Source: a virus
IMG/VR virus record: IMGVR_UViG_3300049456_000054
Location: 1-64,000 of that record
Length of the DNA stretch: 64,000 nt
Direction: 5' to 3' (one strand)
The notes below the pieces were generated by a model. The model ran no database searches. It saw only the letters and a program-made list of their open reading frames with translations, and had not been told where the DNA came from. Of this stretch, positions 2,996 to 60,709 are shown one piece after another (within the stretch, counting starts at the first letter, position 1; every line of letters starts with the position of its first letter). The position numbers were made by a program, and so were the translations under genes.

Positions 2996-3177
2996 TGGCT
3001 GACGTGCTGATGAACGGCCGCGAGCCGGTGAGCTGGGAGCTGCCCTCACTCGAGCGGGGCCGCCGCCAGGAACTCGAGCGGGACACCGCGCGGCTGGCGG
3101 GCGTCCTCGCCGAGGAGCGGGAGGACCCGCCGCCGGGCTGCCGGACGGAGCTCCTGCCGCCGCTGGGCACGCTGTGA
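2995..3177 (+). CDS. Hypothetical, 60 aa
   Basis: ATG 2995 overlaps the preceding TGA, with AGGAGG at 2984-2989 as a strong ribosome-binding site. Charged, probably one long helix (residues 18-45). Function unknown. Confidence 0.65.
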   Translation: MADVLMNGREPVSWELPSLERGRRQELERDTARLAGVLAEEREDPPPGCRTELLPPLGTL

Positions 3178-3536
3178 GCGGCGTGCCGGGCATGCGCCGG
3201 GGCCAGCCGCTGCCTGACGGCGAGCTGGAGCCGTGCGGCACCAGGGCGGCGTACCGGCGGCACCTGCGCCGGGGTGACCCGGTGGACGAGTCGTGCCGTC
3301 AGGCGGAGGCCCGCGGCTGGCAGGACCGGGTCGCGGACGGGTATGTCCGGCCGTCCCGCGGCCGCCGCGTTCACCGGGCGCTGCGGTTCGGGGTGGCGAA
3401 GTGCGGCCGGGGTCAGGTGTCGGTGTCGTCCGATCCAGGTGAGGTGACGTGCCTGAACTGCCTGGGCGGTCACCGCCGCATGCCGTGGGTTCCGGCCCGC
3501 CAGCAGCCGGGGGAGCGGTCTCGTGCCGCAGCCTGA
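3174..3536 (+). CDS. Conserved small actinophage protein, 120 aa
   Basis: GTG 3174 overlaps the preceding stop. N-terminal part contains CGTRAAYRRHLRRGDPVD, a pattern common in small actinophage and actinomycete proteins with a conserved Cys-His arrangement, and a second pair CLNCLGGH lies near residue 95. Possible zinc-binding DNA-associated protein. Role not known. Confidence 0.65.
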   Translation: MSGVPGMRRGQPLPDGELEPCGTRAAYRRHLRRGDPVDESCRQAEARGWQDRVADGYVRPSRGRRVHRALRFGVAKCGRGQVSVSSDPGEVTCLNCLGGHRRMPWVPARQQPGERSRAAA

Positions 3537-3777
3537 CCCGCTGGCGGGGCTGTTCTCGCCGGAGTGGCGCGCGTACGACGCGGTGGCCCGGGCGCTGCCG
3601 GACTGCGGGCACAACCGGGCGTGGCGGGCACTGGGCCCGGGCCGTCCCGTGCCGCCGGACTGCGAGCACAACCGCGTGTGGCGCACCGCGCTGGCTGAGG
3701 CGTGGGCGGCTCACCTGGCCGCGCTGAGTGGCGTGCCGGGGGTCGGCGTCCTGTGCGCGCAGGAGGCGCTGTGGTGA
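3523..3777 (+). CDS. Hypothetical, 84 aa
   Basis: GTG 3523 lies inside the end of the previous gene. Contains two similar segments (ALPDCGHNRAWR and VPPDCEHNRVWR), an internal duplication of about 25 residues with conserved Cys-His-Asn. Function unknown. Confidence 0.55.
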   Translation: MPQPDPLAGLFSPEWRAYDAVARALPDCGHNRAWRALGPGRPVPPDCEHNRVWRTALAEAWAAHLAALSGVPGVGVLCAQEALW

Positions 3778-3815
3778 CCGCTGAGGCTATCGACCTGGAC
3801 CACCCCGGCTCCCCC

Positions 3816-3856
3816 TTGACGTGTGGTCCTACCACGCGGTAGTGTGGTAGGACCAC
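3816..3856 (+). promoter_or_regulatory. Promoter with embedded palindromic operator
   Basis: A -35 TTGACG (3816-3821) and a -10 TAGTGT (3840-3845) are spaced 18 bp. The 13-bp arms GTGGTCCTACCAC (3823-3835) and GTGGTAGGACCAC (3844-3856) form a perfect inverted repeat over the spacer and -10. This is a classic autorepression layout for the two small genes downstream. Confidence 0.6.
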
Positions 3857-3877
3857 CTAGAGAACGGGAGCAGGAAC

Positions 3878-4051
3878 ATGGAGCACGAGGAGAAGCGGAG
3901 CGACTACCACGAGGAGCAGGCCGTGATAACCGCTGACCTCACGCAGGACCAGGCGGTCCGGTGGGTCGAGACCCAGGTCAGCCCCCGGCCGCGCACGAAG
4001 GGCATCCTCACCCTCCTGTACGAGGCCCTGGATCCGGCGAACGAGGTTTAG
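3878..4051 (+). CDS. Small acidic protein, 57 aa
   Basis: ATG 3878 with a GGGAGCAGG purine stretch upstream. First gene after the promoter/operator. Begins with a charged segment MEHEEKRSDYHEEQ. Possibly the regulator or partner of the next, ribbon-helix-helix-like, protein. Two bases separate them. Confidence 0.5.
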   Translation: MEHEEKRSDYHEEQAVITADLTQDQAVRWVETQVSPRPRTKGILTLLYEALDPANEV

Positions 4052-4053
4052 CG

Positions 4054-4218
4054 ATGGGCGACCGCCACAAGTACGCACCGATCCGGTTCCGGCCCCCGGA
4101 ACCGGATCGGCTGTGGCTGCTGGAGTATGCATCCAAGGCGGGCCGGCCGGTTAACGCGGTGCTGGCGGAAGCGCTAGCCGAATACCGCATCCGGCGCGAT
4201 GAGCCGGAAGACGGGTGA
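4054..4218 (+). CDS. Ribbon-helix-helix-like DNA-binding protein, 54 aa
   Basis: ATG 4054 follows the previous stop by two bases. A short beta-like segment (KYAPIRFRPP) precedes two helices (RLWLLEYASKAGR and VNAVLAEALAEYRI), the layout of MetJ/Arc-type repressors. Probable ligand of the 13-bp inverted repeat upstream. No toxin gene follows: the attachment site comes next. Confidence 0.5.
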   Translation: MGDRHKYAPIRFRPPEPDRLWLLEYASKAGRPVNAVLAEALAEYRIRRDEPEDG

Positions 4219-4459
4219 CAGCAACCGTGACAGCAACCGCGAGCGCGGACACCAGCGGACCACGGCGGACACCCGTGCCCGTGACCAGGATTTACCGCGC
4301 TGGAGTCCGCCCGTGTCTGCCGCCGCCCAGGACTACGGATCAGAAGGTTGGGGGTTCGAGTCCCTCCGAGCGCGCTTCTCTGACCAGCGGAAACACCTCC
4401 GGTTGCGGGTTGGCATCCCCTCAGATGGTCATCACTGACCGCAACCGTGACAGCAACCG
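4216..4459 (+). other. attP-like site: tRNA-Arg 3' core flanked by arm repeats
   Basis: 4331-4374 matches the anticodon loop to acceptor end of an actinobacterial tRNA-Arg(ACG): CTACGG loop, GGTTCGAGTCC TPsiC arm, CGAGCGCG end. The 5' half of a tRNA is absent, as in phage att cores. The core is flanked by 12-bp repeats TGACAGCAACCG at 4216-4227, 4228-4239 and 4448-4459 and TGACCGCAACCG at 4436-4447, plus an inverted CGGTTGCGG near 4400. These look like integrase/Xis arm sites on both sides, so the site resembles an intact attP rather than attL or attR. The integrase gene lies 1.2 kb away. Confidence 0.7.
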
Positions 4460-4468
4460 TGAGCGATC

Positions 4469-4978
4469 ATGAAAACCTGCACCGCCTACTGGCGACCGCT
4501 CACGCTTGACGGCGAAGAGGAGATGTGCGGCGATCCCGCGCCGCACAAGGTGGCCGATACCTACTTCTGCGACTACCACTACGAGCAAGCCATCAAGTGG
4601 GCCGCCGAGATCGGCCGCACTGAGACGAGCCTCGTCTACTACGGCCAGCGCGAGTCCGACAGTCTCATCAAGATCGGCACCTCGCGGACGATCATCAGCC
4701 GCTGGTCCACGCTGAGGCAAGAGCACGGGCCGCTCGTCCTCATGGCGGCACACCGTGGCGCGCACCGCGAAGAGCGCATGGTTCATGATCACTTTGCCGC
4801 GCTGCGCGTGGAGGGTGAGTGGTTCCGGCCGGAACTGCCGCTGATCGAGCACATCCTGAAGGCGCGTTCGGCGGCAGGTGTCCGCAGGACTGAAAAACTG
4901 CCGCCTCAGCTAGACCTCCTGGAACTCGGCCGGATGGTCCGCAGGCTTAAACGCGAGCGCAACCGGCGGCGGCCATGA
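4469..4978 (+). CDS. GIY-YIG/T5orf172-like protein
   Basis: ATG 4469 to TGA, 169 aa. An N-terminal Cys/His cluster (residues 4-37) is followed by a segment VYYGQRESDSLIKIGTS and later ERMVHDHFAALRVEGEWF, the signature of the T5orf172/MUG113 branch of the GIY-YIG fold. Proteins of this branch are often associated with mobile elements. It overlaps the methyltransferase start by four bases, so the two probably form a cargo pair next to attP. Nuclease activity is plausible but not shown. Confidence 0.7.
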   Translation: MKTCTAYWRPLTLDGEEEMCGDPAPHKVADTYFCDYHYEQAIKWAAEIGRTETSLVYYGQRESDSLIKIGTSRTIISRWSTLRQEHGPLVLMAAHRGAHREERMVHDHFAALRVEGEWFRPELPLIEHILKARSAAGVRRTEKLPPQLDLLELGRMVRRLKRERNRRRP

Positions 4979-5613
4979 CCGCGCCGTACTACCAGGACGA
5001 GTGGGTGACCCTGTATCACGGCGACTGCCGGGAGGTCACCGAGTGGCTGGCGGCTGATTTCCTGATCACGGATCCGCCGTACGGCATGAACTATGAGCCG
5101 ACCCGGCGCTCGAACGGCTCGAAGCGGTGGGGTGCCGAGCGGATCACCGGGGACGCCAAGCCATTTGACCCGGCACACCTGCTCGCGATCCCCCGGGCGG
5201 TCCTGTTCGGCGCCAACTGGTACGCGGACAAGCTCCCCGCGTCGGGCGGCTGGATCGTGTGGGACAAGACCCCGCGCGGCGAGAAGGCCGGATTCACCGC
5301 CTCGCACGCCGAACTGGCGTGGACCAACGTGAGCAGCCTCGTCAGGACGTTCCGGCTTCAGTGGGGCGGGGAAGCGCGCAACGGCGAGGGACACTACCAT
5401 CCGAACCAGAAGCCGGTCGGGTTGCTCCGGTCGATCATCGAGGCGTACAGCGCGCCGGCTGAAGTCATCGCAGATCCCTACGCGGGCTCCGGCTCGTCGC
5501 TCATCGCTGCCCGCGAGGCTGGCCGCCGCATCATCGCTGTCGAGATCGAGGAGCATTACTGCGAGACGGCCGCACGTCGGCTCGCACAGGGCGTACTGGT
5601 CTATGACGCCTAG
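4975..5613 (+). CDS. DNA adenine/cytosine-N4 methyltransferase
   Basis: ATG 4975, 212 aa. Motif IV is DPPYG (about residue 32) and motif I is DPYAGSGSSLIAA near residue 163, the order of the beta class (IV before I), with the conserved NQKPVGLL segment between. Small enough to be an orphan phage methyltransferase used against host restriction. It shares a palindromic CTAG stop (5610-5613) with the convergent integrase gene. Confidence 0.85.
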   Translation: MTAPYYQDEWVTLYHGDCREVTEWLAADFLITDPPYGMNYEPTRRSNGSKRWGAERITGDAKPFDPAHLLAIPRAVLFGANWYADKLPASGGWIVWDKTPRGEKAGFTASHAELAWTNVSSLVRTFRLQWGGEARNGEGHYHPNQKPVGLLRSIIEAYSAPAEVIADPYAGSGSSLIAAREAGRRIIAVEIEEHYCETAARRLAQGVLVYDA

Positions 5614-33683: not shown

Positions 33684-33931
33684 GCACACCGGACAGCTTC
33701 GAGACGCTCGCCGTCTACAACGCCGAACGCGCACGCGGCATCGTCCACACGCTCGAATGGGACGCCAGGATGGCCGCACTCCAGGTCAAGTTCGACGAGC
33801 GGGTCCGGGACACGCTCCCGGGATACCTGCAGCCCGACGGCACCTACATACTCCCCGGCTGGATGCCCGAAGCCCTCTGGGACTCCATCCACCGCATCCT
33901 CAAGCCAGCACACCGGAAGGACACGCAATGA
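33680..33931 (+). CDS. Antisense moron: hypothetical, 83 aa
   Basis: GTG 33680 overlaps the previous TGA. Helical; SFETLAVYNAERARGIVHT and aromatic C-terminus. Function unknown. Second gene of the cassette. Confidence 0.55.
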   Translation: MSTPDSFETLAVYNAERARGIVHTLEWDARMAALQVKFDERVRDTLPGYLQPDGTYILPGWMPEALWDSIHRILKPAHRKDTQ

Positions 33932-34437
33932 GCGCGGGCCAGAACCGGCTTGCCCAGAAGCGCCGCAAGCTGAAGAAGCACGGCTACGACGGGGTGACCG
34001 ATGAGCAGATATTCCAGCGTGACGACTGGCAGTGCCAGATGGCGGAATGCCTGTGCCCGGACGGCCGGGGCCTAGACCAGTGCCTGCGGGGAGCGATCGG
34101 CGGCCCGTGGGTACCTGCTATTCACCACGTCGTCCGGCTGGCTGACGGCGGCCTGTCCAACGCCGGCAACAAGCTGGCCGCGCACAACCAGTGCAGCTCA
34201 ATGGCCAACCGCGAGATTCAGCGGGCGCAGGCGCAGGCGCCGACTGACCCGGTGCCGGGTGTGGTGATGGTGAGGCTGATCGGCCTGCCGGCTGACATCG
34301 ACGCGGCGCTGGCAGTGCTGGCGTCTACCGGAAACTGGGAGACGGGGACCCGCACGGCTGCTCCTAAGGAGCGGATACCAGGGCAGGAGAAAGTCCTCGG
34401 GCTGCTGACAGTCCGGGATTGGCCACCATCTGGCTAG
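33928..34437 (+). CDS. Antisense moron: HNH endonuclease, 169 aa
   Basis: ATG 33928. CQMAECLCPDGRG, then IHHVVRLADGG and NKLAAHNQCSSMANREI: an HNH catalytic core with the IHH segment. Ends at a CTAG shared with the convergent homing-endonuclease gene. With the next gene it makes two HNH genes back to back. Confidence 0.75.
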   Translation: MSAGQNRLAQKRRKLKKHGYDGVTDEQIFQRDDWQCQMAECLCPDGRGLDQCLRGAIGGPWVPAIHHVVRLADGGLSNAGNKLAAHNQCSSMANREIQRAQAQAPTDPVPGVVMVRLIGLPADIDAALAVLASTGNWETGTRTAAPKERIPGQEKVLGLLTVRDWPPSG

Positions 34438-35075
34438 CCTGCCTTTCTGGCCGCCAGCAAGGCGGTCATGGCGTCCGCGTGATACTCCGCGATGTACTCC
34501 ATCAGGTCGGTGACCCGCTGGCCGGAGGGCTGCGTCACGAACCACAGCTCCAGGTTGCCGATCGCGTTGTCGTCCCTGACGCCGTTCTTGTGGTGGACGT
34601 TCTCGCCGGGGACGAGGCGCCGGCGGAGGTCCTGTTCCTTCACGTACCGGTGTTCCAGGTAGCGTTCGCCGTTGACCGTGATGACCCGGTAGCCGCGCCC
34701 GTCGTCGCTGCCTTCGCCGCTGGCGGCCTTCATCAGGCCGACGGGTCCGCCGTCCTCGTATCCCAGCTTGAAGACGCGCTGGTAATGCAGGCGGCACCAG
34801 CCGAGCGCATATGCCGGCTCGGGGCAGCCGTCCTTGTGCTTGCACGTCCCGCCGCGCTTCATGCGCCGCGGGATCGGGGCGTCCCAGTCGGGCAGGCCCT
34901 GACGTTTCCTGTTGTAGTGCGTCGTGCACAGCTTGGCGGCGTCGATGCGCCGGCCGCAGTGCCCTAGCGAGCACTCGCCTAGCGTGGCCCGCCATTCGGC
35001 GTACTGGTGTTTCTTGCAGATCGTGTTGCCCCTGCGCGGTGGCAGATGGCAATCGTCGTGCGAGCATTCTTCCAT
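34434..35075 (-). CDS. HNH homing endonuclease next to the spliced capsid gene
   Basis: ATG 35075, 213 aa. Three Cys/His zinc knuckles in the N-terminal half (ECSHDDCHLPPRRG, ECSLGHCGRR, CKHKDGCPEPAY) are followed by a C-terminal HNH domain with VPGENVHHKNGVRDDN and IGNLELWF, the H-N-H residues of the phage homing type. It is free-standing just after the capsid stop. A stem-loop covering its ribosome-binding site precedes it. It may drive spread of the neighbouring introns in trans. Confidence 0.85.
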   Translation of the reverse strand: MEECSHDDCHLPPRRGNTICKKHQYAEWRATLGECSLGHCGRRIDAAKLCTTHYNRKRQGLPDWDAPIPRRMKRGGTCKHKDGCPEPAYALGWCRLHYQRVFKLGYEDGGPVGLMKAASGEGSDDGRGYRVITVNGERYLEHRYVKEQDLRRRLVPGENVHHKNGVRDDNAIGNLELWFVTQPSGQRVTDLMEYIAEYHADAMTALLAARKAG

Positions 35076-35082
35076 GCTGGCT

Positions 35083-35123
35083 CCCCTAGTTGAGAACCAC
35101 TGTACGCGGTTCTCAACTAGGGG
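35083..35123 (-). promoter_or_regulatory. Stem-loop covering the HNH ribosome-binding site
   Basis: Perfect 16-bp inverted repeat (CCCCTAGTTGAGAACC at 35083-35098 and its complement at 35108-35123) with a 9-nt loop. Read leftward, the 3' arm contains AGGGG directly before the start at 35075, so folding would hide the ribosome-binding site. It also sits 12 bases after the capsid stop and could act as a terminator. Confidence 0.6.
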
Positions 35124-35134
35124 AAACCATCAGG

Positions 35135-37436
35135 TCAGGCGCCCTTCATGACCCTGAAAGCGTTGACGGTCGAGAGCTGTGCTCCCACGCGCCAGAACAT
35201 GAACCACGGATTGTTACTCACTCGTCACGGCGAGTGAGGCCAGGTCGTTTCCGCCTGGCTCTGCGTCTTTTCCATCGGCGCAGACCGGACTATATCTTCA
35301 GCTCCAGCCCTGCTCAGCTGTACCGGCTTCGCAGGTCTGTCGGAGTTGCCACACGTGTAGTCTCTACGGACTCCCCGGCACGGGTTGCCTCGGTATTCCC
35401 CCGTCGATCCTGGAGGGGTTCACCGATACAGTGCGGTGTTCACTAGCACGTCACCGTGCTAGGCGGCCAGTTCAAATTGACCGGCCTGCCCTGCGGGCAG
35501 GATGCCGCCGGTCCCCTTGACCAGCGGTTCGTAGATCATCGATACGCCGCGTTGCTGTTACCACCCGCCTCTGAGGGCGGGCAGGCAGGTCGTTTCCGCC
35601 TGCCTCTGCAGCTTTGCCATCGCTGCAGACCGGACTGTAACTTCACCTGCGGTCCATCGCCCCCGGTGCACTCGGGGCGCGGCCCATAACACAGGTGCCA
35701 CACGCTCAGTCTCTACGGAACCCTGTAGTGCGAGGTTTCCACGGTATTCCCCGTCTTGCCTGGTGGGGTTCACCGTTACGGTGCGGTTTGCACTGGCGGA
35801 TCGCTCCGTCAGGCGGCCAGTGCGAAGTCGTGCTTCGCCTCGACCCGGTCGACGATGATGTACTGCCCGAAGTCCCCGAAGATCGCTTCGAGGGTGGTGG
35901 TCGCCACGCCGGAGGCCATTGTGGTGGACTCGTAAATGGGAGCGCCCAGCAAAGTTTCCGGCTGACCCTTCCCCAAATTCGTCCAGAATGAACTGCCGCC
36001 GGCGGTGTCGAGCTGCCGGAACCGGTTGATCTGCGAGACGTTCGCGACCCAGGCGCAGCCGGGAGCATTCCTGAACCTGGCCGGAAGCGCCGCCTGGACG
36101 GCATATACGTCGGCGATGGCCACGACCGTAGTGGTCGCGGTGGTGACGACGGTAGTGGCGCCGTTGACGACGCCCTGCGGCTGGCCGGCACCGGAGCCGG
36201 TGGCGAACGCCGCCTCTTCGAGGCGATCCTTGGCGTCGGCCAGGAGGCCCGGCAGCTGCTGGCCGAAATCGGTGTCTTCGAGAACTTCGTAGCTCGTCGT
36301 TGTTACCCGCACGTCAGGGCGTGCGGGGCCAGGTCGTTTCCGCCTGGCTCTGCGTCTTTTCCATCGGCGCAGACCGGACCATATCTTCACCTCCAGTCCC
36401 GCCCGGCTATACCGGCCTGGCAGGCCTGTCGGAGGTGCCTCGCGTGTGGTCTCTACGGAGTCCCCGGCACGGGTTCCCTCGGTATTCCCCGGTCGATCCT
36501 GGCGGGGTTCACCGATACAGCGTGGTTGTTCACTGGCCAGTCACCTGGTCAGGCGGCAACTTTTTCCTTACCGAACACCCAGGCAGCGGCCTTGCCGGGT
36601 GTGACGACGATGTTCGCGACGGTGGGCGTGTTGTCGGTGACGATGGTGCCTTCAGCGAGCCACGCCGCGTTGACGCCGGCGGAGTTGACGCCGTTCCACG
36701 TGTTGGACGTGGTGGTCTTGACGTTGGAGATCCGCCGCCACGGGTTGGCGCTGGAGGCGTTGGTGAGGATGATGGTCGGGTCGAGGATGAACGGAAGGAG
36801 ATATCCACCGTTCGCCAGGGTGAGGGACAGGGCGGCGCGCTGGGCGTTGCCCTGCGGGTCCTGCAGGTACTCCTGGAACGCTTCCTGGTACTCCTCGGCG
36901 CCGGTCAGGAGGATGTGCCGGGCGATGTTGTTGTTGGTGAAGTAGCCGCCGTTCTCGACCTTGCGGGTCGTGACCTCGGCGTACTCGGGCATCAGGTTCC
37001 CGCGCTTGGCCTCGTGCTCGATCGCGTCCAGGGCGCGTTCGCGGAGTTCGGAGCGGCGCATCAGGATCTGGTTCTCGGACCGGATGACGTCCTGGCAGTC
37101 GTAGGGGTCCCGGTTGTTGCGGATCACCAGGTCGGGGCCGGAGGGGCCGGAGGTGCCGTACCGTCCGCCGCCGTAGCCGTTCCCGCTGGCGGCGGGGTCC
37201 TGCCCGGCGGGGGCTTCGAGGTTGGCGGGGTCGGCGGCGGCGCGGGTGATGTTGCGGATCTTCTCCATCCGCTCGATCAGCGGCTTGGATTTGGCGTCGA
37301 GGGCTTCCCACCGGTCGAGGAGGGTGTCGCGGAGGTCGCCGTCTTTCTCCTCGGTGGTTTCCCCGTCGTCCTCCATCCGCTGGAGCTCGTTCTTGATCCT
37401 CGCCATCTCGTCGAGGTATTCCTGCAATGCGGCCAT
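35135..37436 (-). CDS. Major capsid protein, HK97-fold, four exons
   Basis: Start ATG 37436 with AAAGGACG upstream. Exons: 37436-36570 (867 nt), 36294-35843 (452 nt), 35549-35480 (70 nt), 35206-35135 (72 nt): together exactly 487 codons, no stop until the last. Joints read in frame: AWVFG|SYEVLED, IIVDR(V)|GVSMIYEP, PAGQAG|WFMFWRV, all typical HK97-capsid sequence. Exon 1 holds the N-terminal delta-like helical domain (residues 1-100) cut by the protease; exons 1-2 the A and P domains; exon 4 ends with STVNAFRVMKGA. Without splicing the longest product would be the truncated exon 1 (about 295 aa). Function: capsid shell. Confidence 0.9.
35207..35479 (-). ncRNA. Group I intron C in capsid gene, 273 nt
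   Basis: Begins after exon ...GCC GGT and ends with ...AATCCG before TGG TTC. P7 strands are 35362-35358 and 35292-35288 (GACUA paired with UAGUC), followed by AAGATATAGTCC. A P8/P9-like hairpin CTGCG...CGCAG and the tract CAGGCGGAAACGACCTG are shared with introns A and B. The 3' hairpin CTCACTCG...CGAGTGAG precedes the splice site. Confidence 0.85.
35550..35842 (-). ncRNA. Group I intron B in capsid gene, 293 nt
   Basis: Begins after exon ...GAC CGG GT and ends ...CAGCAACG before the exon-3 C GGC GTA (phase 2). P7 strands GACUG (35711-35707) and CAGUC (35637-35633) differ from the other introns but remain complementary. Hairpins TCTGCAGC...GCTGCAGA and CCCGCC...GGCGGG match the same positions by covariation. 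A 5-bp P1 (exon CGGGU with intron GCCUG) can form. Confidence 0.85.
36295..36569 (-). ncRNA. Group I intron A in capsid gene, 275 nt
   Basis: Begins after exon ...GTG TTC GGT and ends ...ACGACG before AGC TAC GAA. P7 strands are 36451-36447 (GACCA) and 36381-36377 (UGGUC). Conserved AAGATATGGTCCGG and CAGGCGGAAACGACCTGG. The 3' hairpin CCCGCACG...CGTGCGGG lies before the splice site. The start codes KEKVAA then stop if not spliced. Confidence 0.85.
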
Positions 37437-60584: not shown

Positions 60585-60657
60585 GCGCCAGTAGCTCAGC
60601 CGGACAGAGCGGCCGTGACGTAGCGGCAGGTCCGAGGTCCGAATCCTCGCTGGCGCG
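60585..60657 (+). tRNA. tRNA-like gene with odd anticodon arm
   Basis: Acceptor GCGCCAG pairs perfectly with CTGGCGC; D arm GCTC/GAGC; variable AGGTC; TPsiC arm CGAGG-TCCGAAT-CCTCG. The anticodon stem (GCCGT with GCGGC) leaves only six loop bases, so the anticodon cannot be assigned. No CCA is encoded (CCC follows). Host-like fold but possibly degenerate or a phage tRNA with unusual specificity. Confidence 0.6.
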
Positions 60658-60709
60658 CCCTTATGTGGAGACCCTCGTCATCCGTCTCCATATGGCGTAG
60701 CGTGCCCAG

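Follow-up and report, generated by a model that had tools for sequence, protein, structure and literature searches.

Small group I introns have been described before in the structural genes of phages. The minor-tail gene of the mycobacteriophages Baka and Optimus carries a 265-bp intron, and splicing of the Baka intron in vivo has been demonstrated by reverse transcription PCR (PMC3706429); the major capsid gene of LittleE is also interrupted (PMC3706429). Here we analyse a major capsid gene on the minus strand of IMG/VR virus record IMGVR_UViG_3300049456_000054 that appears to contain three such introns. The stretch examined, hereafter the window, comprises 64,000 of the 66,052 bases of that record. 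The three introns resemble the Baka intron in their core (72% identity between intron 3 and Baka over 208 nucleotides (nt)), in their U and G ends, in their size, in encoding no endonuclease and in interrupting a phage structural gene. With LittleE they have the host gene in common, but the LittleE intron encodes an endonuclease. Baka, Optimus and LittleE each have one intron per gene, in contrast to three in one gene here and nine sites across relatives.

Three introns in one phage gene are not a first. According to a secondary account in PMC11878797, orf142 of Twort contains three group I introns and shows exon skipping (Landthaler and Shub 1999); as described there, it is likewise a phage structural gene, but it encodes a tail-tube protein in a phage of Staphylococcus, a low-GC host, whereas the family reported here broadly colonizes capsid genes. 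Bastillevirinae also have two or three group I introns in several genes (PMC11878797), but these are polymerase, terminase and reductase genes, and the mean intron length is 802 nt. Introns of eukaryotic ribosomal RNA (rRNA) genes offer a parallel in that relatives occupy different sites, with spread proposed to proceed through a short guide match, although their hosts are rRNA genes rather than phage protein genes. According to a 2025 survey, phage introns lie chiefly in genes of nucleotide and DNA metabolism, a bias whose reason its authors asked about (PMC11878797), and a 2014 review stated that there was no direct experimental evidence on how endonuclease-free group I introns reach new sites (PMC3984707).

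Three excisions restore an HK97 capsid gene

Read directly, the capsid gene (start 37436, end 35135), which follows the prohead protease and portal genes, runs into stops whichever of the three frames is used. Removal of three inserts (Table 1) leaves exons of 867, 452, 70 and 72 nt, which join with phases 0, 2 and 0 into a 487-codon frame (486 amino acids and a stop) with no internal stop. The last base is U in each exon and G in each intron. The spliced product matches PF05065 Phage_capsid across 279 of 280 profile positions (E = 1e-40), identifying it as an HK97-fold protein, and shares 35–37% identity with Gordonia and Mycobacterium phage capsid proteins. An initial annotation, made from the sequence, had proposed this four-exon arrangement together with its phases, its U and G ends and the HK97 assignment, all of which held when recomputed. 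The same annotation had called the virus an actinobacteriophage. The capsid kinship and the high GC content of the window (68–72%) agree with this, making an actinobacterial host probable rather than established.

Scanning IMG/VR for relatives of the spliced capsid protein returned 79 loci, 60 of which are uninterrupted along almost the entire gene. Joints 1, 2 and 3 are crossed without an insert in 76, 75 and 67 of the 79, respectively, at 58–93% identity, so each joint is correct at codon resolution. Thus, intronless relatives, which the initial annotation had named as a check, bear out the coding at each joint. Left in place, introns 1, 2 and 3 present in-frame stops after 6, 10 and 6 codons, which rules out direct read-through. 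Partial or alternative splicing of the message is likely, because the introns have cores and guides in common; the sole in-frame skip predicted would join exon 1 to exon 4 and remove codons 290–463.

The inserts as group I introns of one family

The assignment of the three inserts to one family of group I introns in the capsid gene of a high-GC phage, as first annotated, is supported by an Rfam match, by covariation, by homology to an intron proven to splice and by the intronless relatives. In a search with relaxed thresholds, the group I model RF00028 aligned to intron 3 over its full length (39.6 bits, E = 5.8e-8), and it also matched introns of relatives (L103 at 45.7 bits, L062 and L110). 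Baka-type minor-tail introns match intron 3 at 71.8% identity across 208 nt (E = 9e-20), and introns 1 and 2 share homology with intron 3.

With helices placed by hand on intron 3 and compared across 17 introns, pairing held in 95.7% of the cells of helices P2, P3, P4, P5, P6, P7 and P8 and the P9 hairpins, both sides had changed at 27 of 54 base pairs (including pairs in P2, P3, P4, P6, P7, P8 and P9), and the covariation score was 0.371 compared with 0.142 (standard deviation 0.011) after shuffling and at most 0.079 after sliding, although the 17 rows are related and these counts are not probabilities. The P7 pairs quoted earlier as covarying in the window (GACCA:UGGUC, GACUG:CAGUC and GACUA:UAGUC) are real, and a relative, L108, adds GAGCA:UGCUC. 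All elements of the catalytic core (P3, P4, P5, P6, P7, P8 and the P3/P7 pseudoknot) were found. A covariance model of the core recovered precisely introns 1–3 from the window and no fourth family member, a scan that is informative solely on the absence of others, as the three were part of the model. At 273–293 nt, the introns are too short to encode an endonuclease.

Proposed splicing reaction

We consider it almost certain that three endonuclease-free group I introns excise themselves from the capsid pre-mRNA, and that their family spreads ectopically, mostly among capsid genes. Each small intron carried by the pre-mRNA would fold as a P2–P9 ribozyme whose guide, GCCG or GCC, pairs with the last three or four bases of the upstream exon, including the final U. 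A two-step reaction started by guanosine, with excision predicted after the last G of the intron, would then yield a single message for the 486-residue HK97 capsid protein. With these guides, a U–G pair at the splice site can be drawn for all three introns. The duplex program returned this pairing for intron 1, chose another register for intron 2 and, for intron 3, favoured a 6-bp register shifted upstream by one step. At site A in relatives, an exon end of CGAU is accompanied by a guide of GUCG, so that the change is compensated.

Insertion sites and spread of the family

Rule-based splicing of 16 introns from relatives (U and G ends and the best match to the capsid protein; L108_A was given its second-scoring joint, since this one fits the consensus intron ends) restored the capsid frame in each case. 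With those of the window and of L006, they occupy nine sites in this capsid family. Written with a slash at the insertion point, these are ANGG/YLLP, VLD/PTII, W(V)/FG, FG/SYEV (window intron 1), YE(V)/LED, LG/KGQ, DR(V)/GVS (window intron 2), RVG/VSI and QAG/WFM (window intron 3). Among the relatives, L110 has three introns in its capsid gene, and L108, L006 and L213 have two each. The family is mostly endonuclease-free, with endonuclease VII or LAGLIDADG-like genes in some members: one of the five site-A introns, that of L105, reaches 975 nt and contains the coding sequence of an endonuclease VII domain (E = 1e-20). The exon ends in GGU at eight of the nine sites, site A with its compensated CGAU end being the ninth, whereas across the gene 10% of T's follow GG (binomial p = 7e-8); this excess may reflect targeting, or other insertions may simply have been unable to splice.

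A second core lineage (AAGGTNCANNGACTATGTACG), found in L112, L105, L194, L206, L210 and others, has the 5′ and 3′ ends of the first but a different core, which suggests core swapping between introns.

The stops that break the direct frame could be those of a decayed pseudogene with insertions, or of an assembly artefact. Such an origin has next to no chance of being correct, as the three removals leave an intact and conserved frame, the RNA pairs covary, and independent contigs bear the family at the same and at other sites. Copying of all three introns within this one gene, without separate arrivals, is a better candidate but still improbable. Introns 1 and 3 are 83–86% identical, and in a tree of 34 intron cores, many inner branches of which are weak, their sisterhood was not rejected (p = 0.18); by contrast, a single clade of introns 1–3 was rejected (approximately unbiased test, p-AU = 1.9e-6), and with it a triplication within the capsid gene, and intron 2 fell, with full support, among introns that other phages carry at sites B′, D-like and E. 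A single clade of all site-E introns was rejected as well. Cores thus appear to move between sites, and as they do not follow sites, the pattern points to repeated ectopic spread, although recombination between cores within one gene would mimic it. The initial annotation had offered repeated invasion or duplication: invasion is favoured, in-gene copying does not account for all three introns, and introns 1 and 3 may be sisters.

Under self-excision with ectopic spread, introns would have arrived at sites sharing a short …GGU end, either through reverse splicing into capsid mRNA, which is abundant, or through endonuclease-driven jumps. That homing endonucleases drive the spread, either in trans or from genes since lost from the introns, seems to us possible but rather unlikely. 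An HNH_3-like gene adjoins the capsid gene, and the endonuclease genes in some family members fit this route; yet a neighbouring HNH gene is present at 18 of 56 intronless and 5 of 15 interrupted capsid genes (p = 1), so homing in trans by that neighbour found no association in its favour, and by eye the flanks of the nine sites share …GGU alone. Some observations tell against the self-excision and spread that we favour. The predicted P1 of intron 2 is weak, the weakest of the three introns. The GGU ends are required for splicing anyway, and hence are no proof of targeting by reverse splicing. The window has no Rfam match at the gathering threshold; intron 3 falls below the curated RF00028 cut-off (at least 50 bits), and introns 1 and 2 were not matched by RF00028 even in the laxer search. 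The splicing-proven Baka intron is itself absent from the RF00028 listing at E = 0.01, which makes the curated cut-off a blind spot for this family rather than counter-evidence.

Preference for capsid genes

In a viral collection, we selected contigs purely on intron sequence, whatever gene it lay in. The intron lies in or near the major capsid gene (at most 900 bases from a capsid match) in 51 of 64 distinct contigs, and the capsid hosts span PHROG families 1357, 2263, 752/212, 29 and 10 as well as PF05065; other hosts are major tail and minor tail genes and a portal-like gene. Because the collection is viral, this bias is a preference among phage genes. The most heavily interrupted gene, in L210 (reverse strand, 3081–5500), has five group I introns of 266–300 nt, and its spliced product is a 332-residue capsid protein 67% identical from end to end to the uninterrupted capsid of Streptomyces phage LuckySocke. 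In the papers searched, no phage gene exceeded three introns. Outside phages, a plasmid search returned no related DNA, a 17-base pattern in bacterial genomes gave 50 loci, none a convincing intron (best E = 7e-4), and a P4–P5 pattern had no match in a sample of 396 genomes from the same phylum as a Streptomyces genome.

The family thus reverses the pattern of the 2025 survey, piling into the major capsid gene at many sites, mostly without endonucleases and with up to five introns per gene. It also provides a natural system for the jumping of endonuclease-free introns, with intronless controls for every site. Capsid genes look broken in many metagenomic phages, and annotation may miss or split them, because the curated Rfam cut-off misses the family.

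Four contigs (L187, L212, L218 and L226) carry introns in a structural-looking gene (FEDI…LLLQEFML) that has no PHROG match, with at most three model matches per contig.

In-frame tails at the exon–intron boundary

Read from the upstream exon, the window introns open with short tails that end, before the first stop, in KVAA (36569–36549), FALAA (35842–35809) and ELAA (35479–35459), and all 25 exactly joined introns reach their stop in no more than 11 codons. Most group I introns are already known to have such an early in-frame stop (PMC3073962); the new part is the (A)LAA-type ending. With the frame picked independently of homology, by GC content at third positions, tails ended in LAA in 29 of 74 cases and in AA in 43, compared with 0 and 2 of 81 in the other frames (p = 1e-11 for LAA); 22 of 906 long open reading frames (ORFs) end in LAA (2.4%). 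In LuckySocke-type capsids, LAA occurs at 11 of 16 late sites and at none of 20 early sites (p = 7e-6), in a tally of related introns listed by hand with the threshold set after seeing the data. The codons of LAA tails vary (CTG, TTG, CTC and CTT for leucine; GCA, GCC, GCG and GCT for alanine). Actinobacterial transfer-messenger RNA (tmRNA) tags (ANAKRSSFALAA, ANTKSDSQSYALAA and ADSNQRDYALAA) end in FALAA or YALAA. A literature search for intron-encoded ssrA-like tails found none.

Given the LAA enrichment, the bias to late sites, the varied codons and the ends of the tmRNA tags, the tails could be a built-in safety tag that would send unspliced, truncated capsid proteins, which are potential assembly poisons, to ClpXP. 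We regard this as doubtful. If true, the intron would clean up after its own splicing failures. Against such a degron, the Ala-Ala codons in many introns come from the guide GCCGCC, the leucine codon belongs to the P10 strand and the stop falls inside P2 or next to it; for tails of the WALAA class, P2 contains most LAA codons and a GNRA-like loop holds the stop. RNA constraint and the required early in-frame stop may together yield LAA tails, explaining much of the enrichment, and because the introns are related the tail counts are not independent. The tail may therefore be a degron or a by-product of the RNA.

Feature coordinates and neighbouring genes

Table 1. Features of the interrupted capsid gene and its downstream neighbour in the window
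Feature	Coordinates	Strand	Remarks
Capsid exon 1	36570–37436	−	codons 1–289; 3′ end …TTCGGT; relatives contiguous across joint
Group I intron 1	36295–36569	−	275 nt; phase 0; site B; in-frame tail KEKVAA-stop
Intron 1 internal guide sequence GCCG	36554–36557	−	predicted to pair with exon CGGU, U–G at splice site; duplex program
Capsid exon 2	35843–36294	−	3′ end …CGGGT; phase 2
Group I intron 2	35550–35842	−	293 nt; site D; in-frame tail VEAKHDFALAA-stop
Intron 2 guide GCC	35815–35817	−	predicted to pair with exon GGU, 3 bp then G–G mismatch
Capsid exon 3	35480–35549	−	70 nt; 3′ end …GCCGGT
Group I intron 3	35207–35479	−	273 nt; phase 0; site E; in-frame tail QFELAA-stop
Intron 3 internal guide sequence GCCG	35464–35467	−	predicted to pair with exon CGGU, from sequence
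Intron 3 P7 5′ strand GACUA	35358–35362	−	covariation
Intron 3 P7 3′ strand UAGUC	35288–35292	−	covariation
Capsid exon 4 and stop codon	35135–35206	−	
HNH_3-like gene, free-standing	34434–35075	−	directly downstream of capsid gene; E = 4e-5, slightly under cut-off

HNH-like genes follow about one-third of the related capsid genes, intron-bearing or not. In the window, a perfect 16-nt inverted repeat (CCCCTAGTTGAGAACC/GGTTCTCAACTAGGGG, 35083–35123) lies between the capsid stop and the HNH start and is perhaps a terminator. A convergent ORF on the plus strand (33757–34437) has HNH-like Cys/His spacing and no Pfam match, and a tRNA-like gene is located at 60585–60659 on the plus strand.
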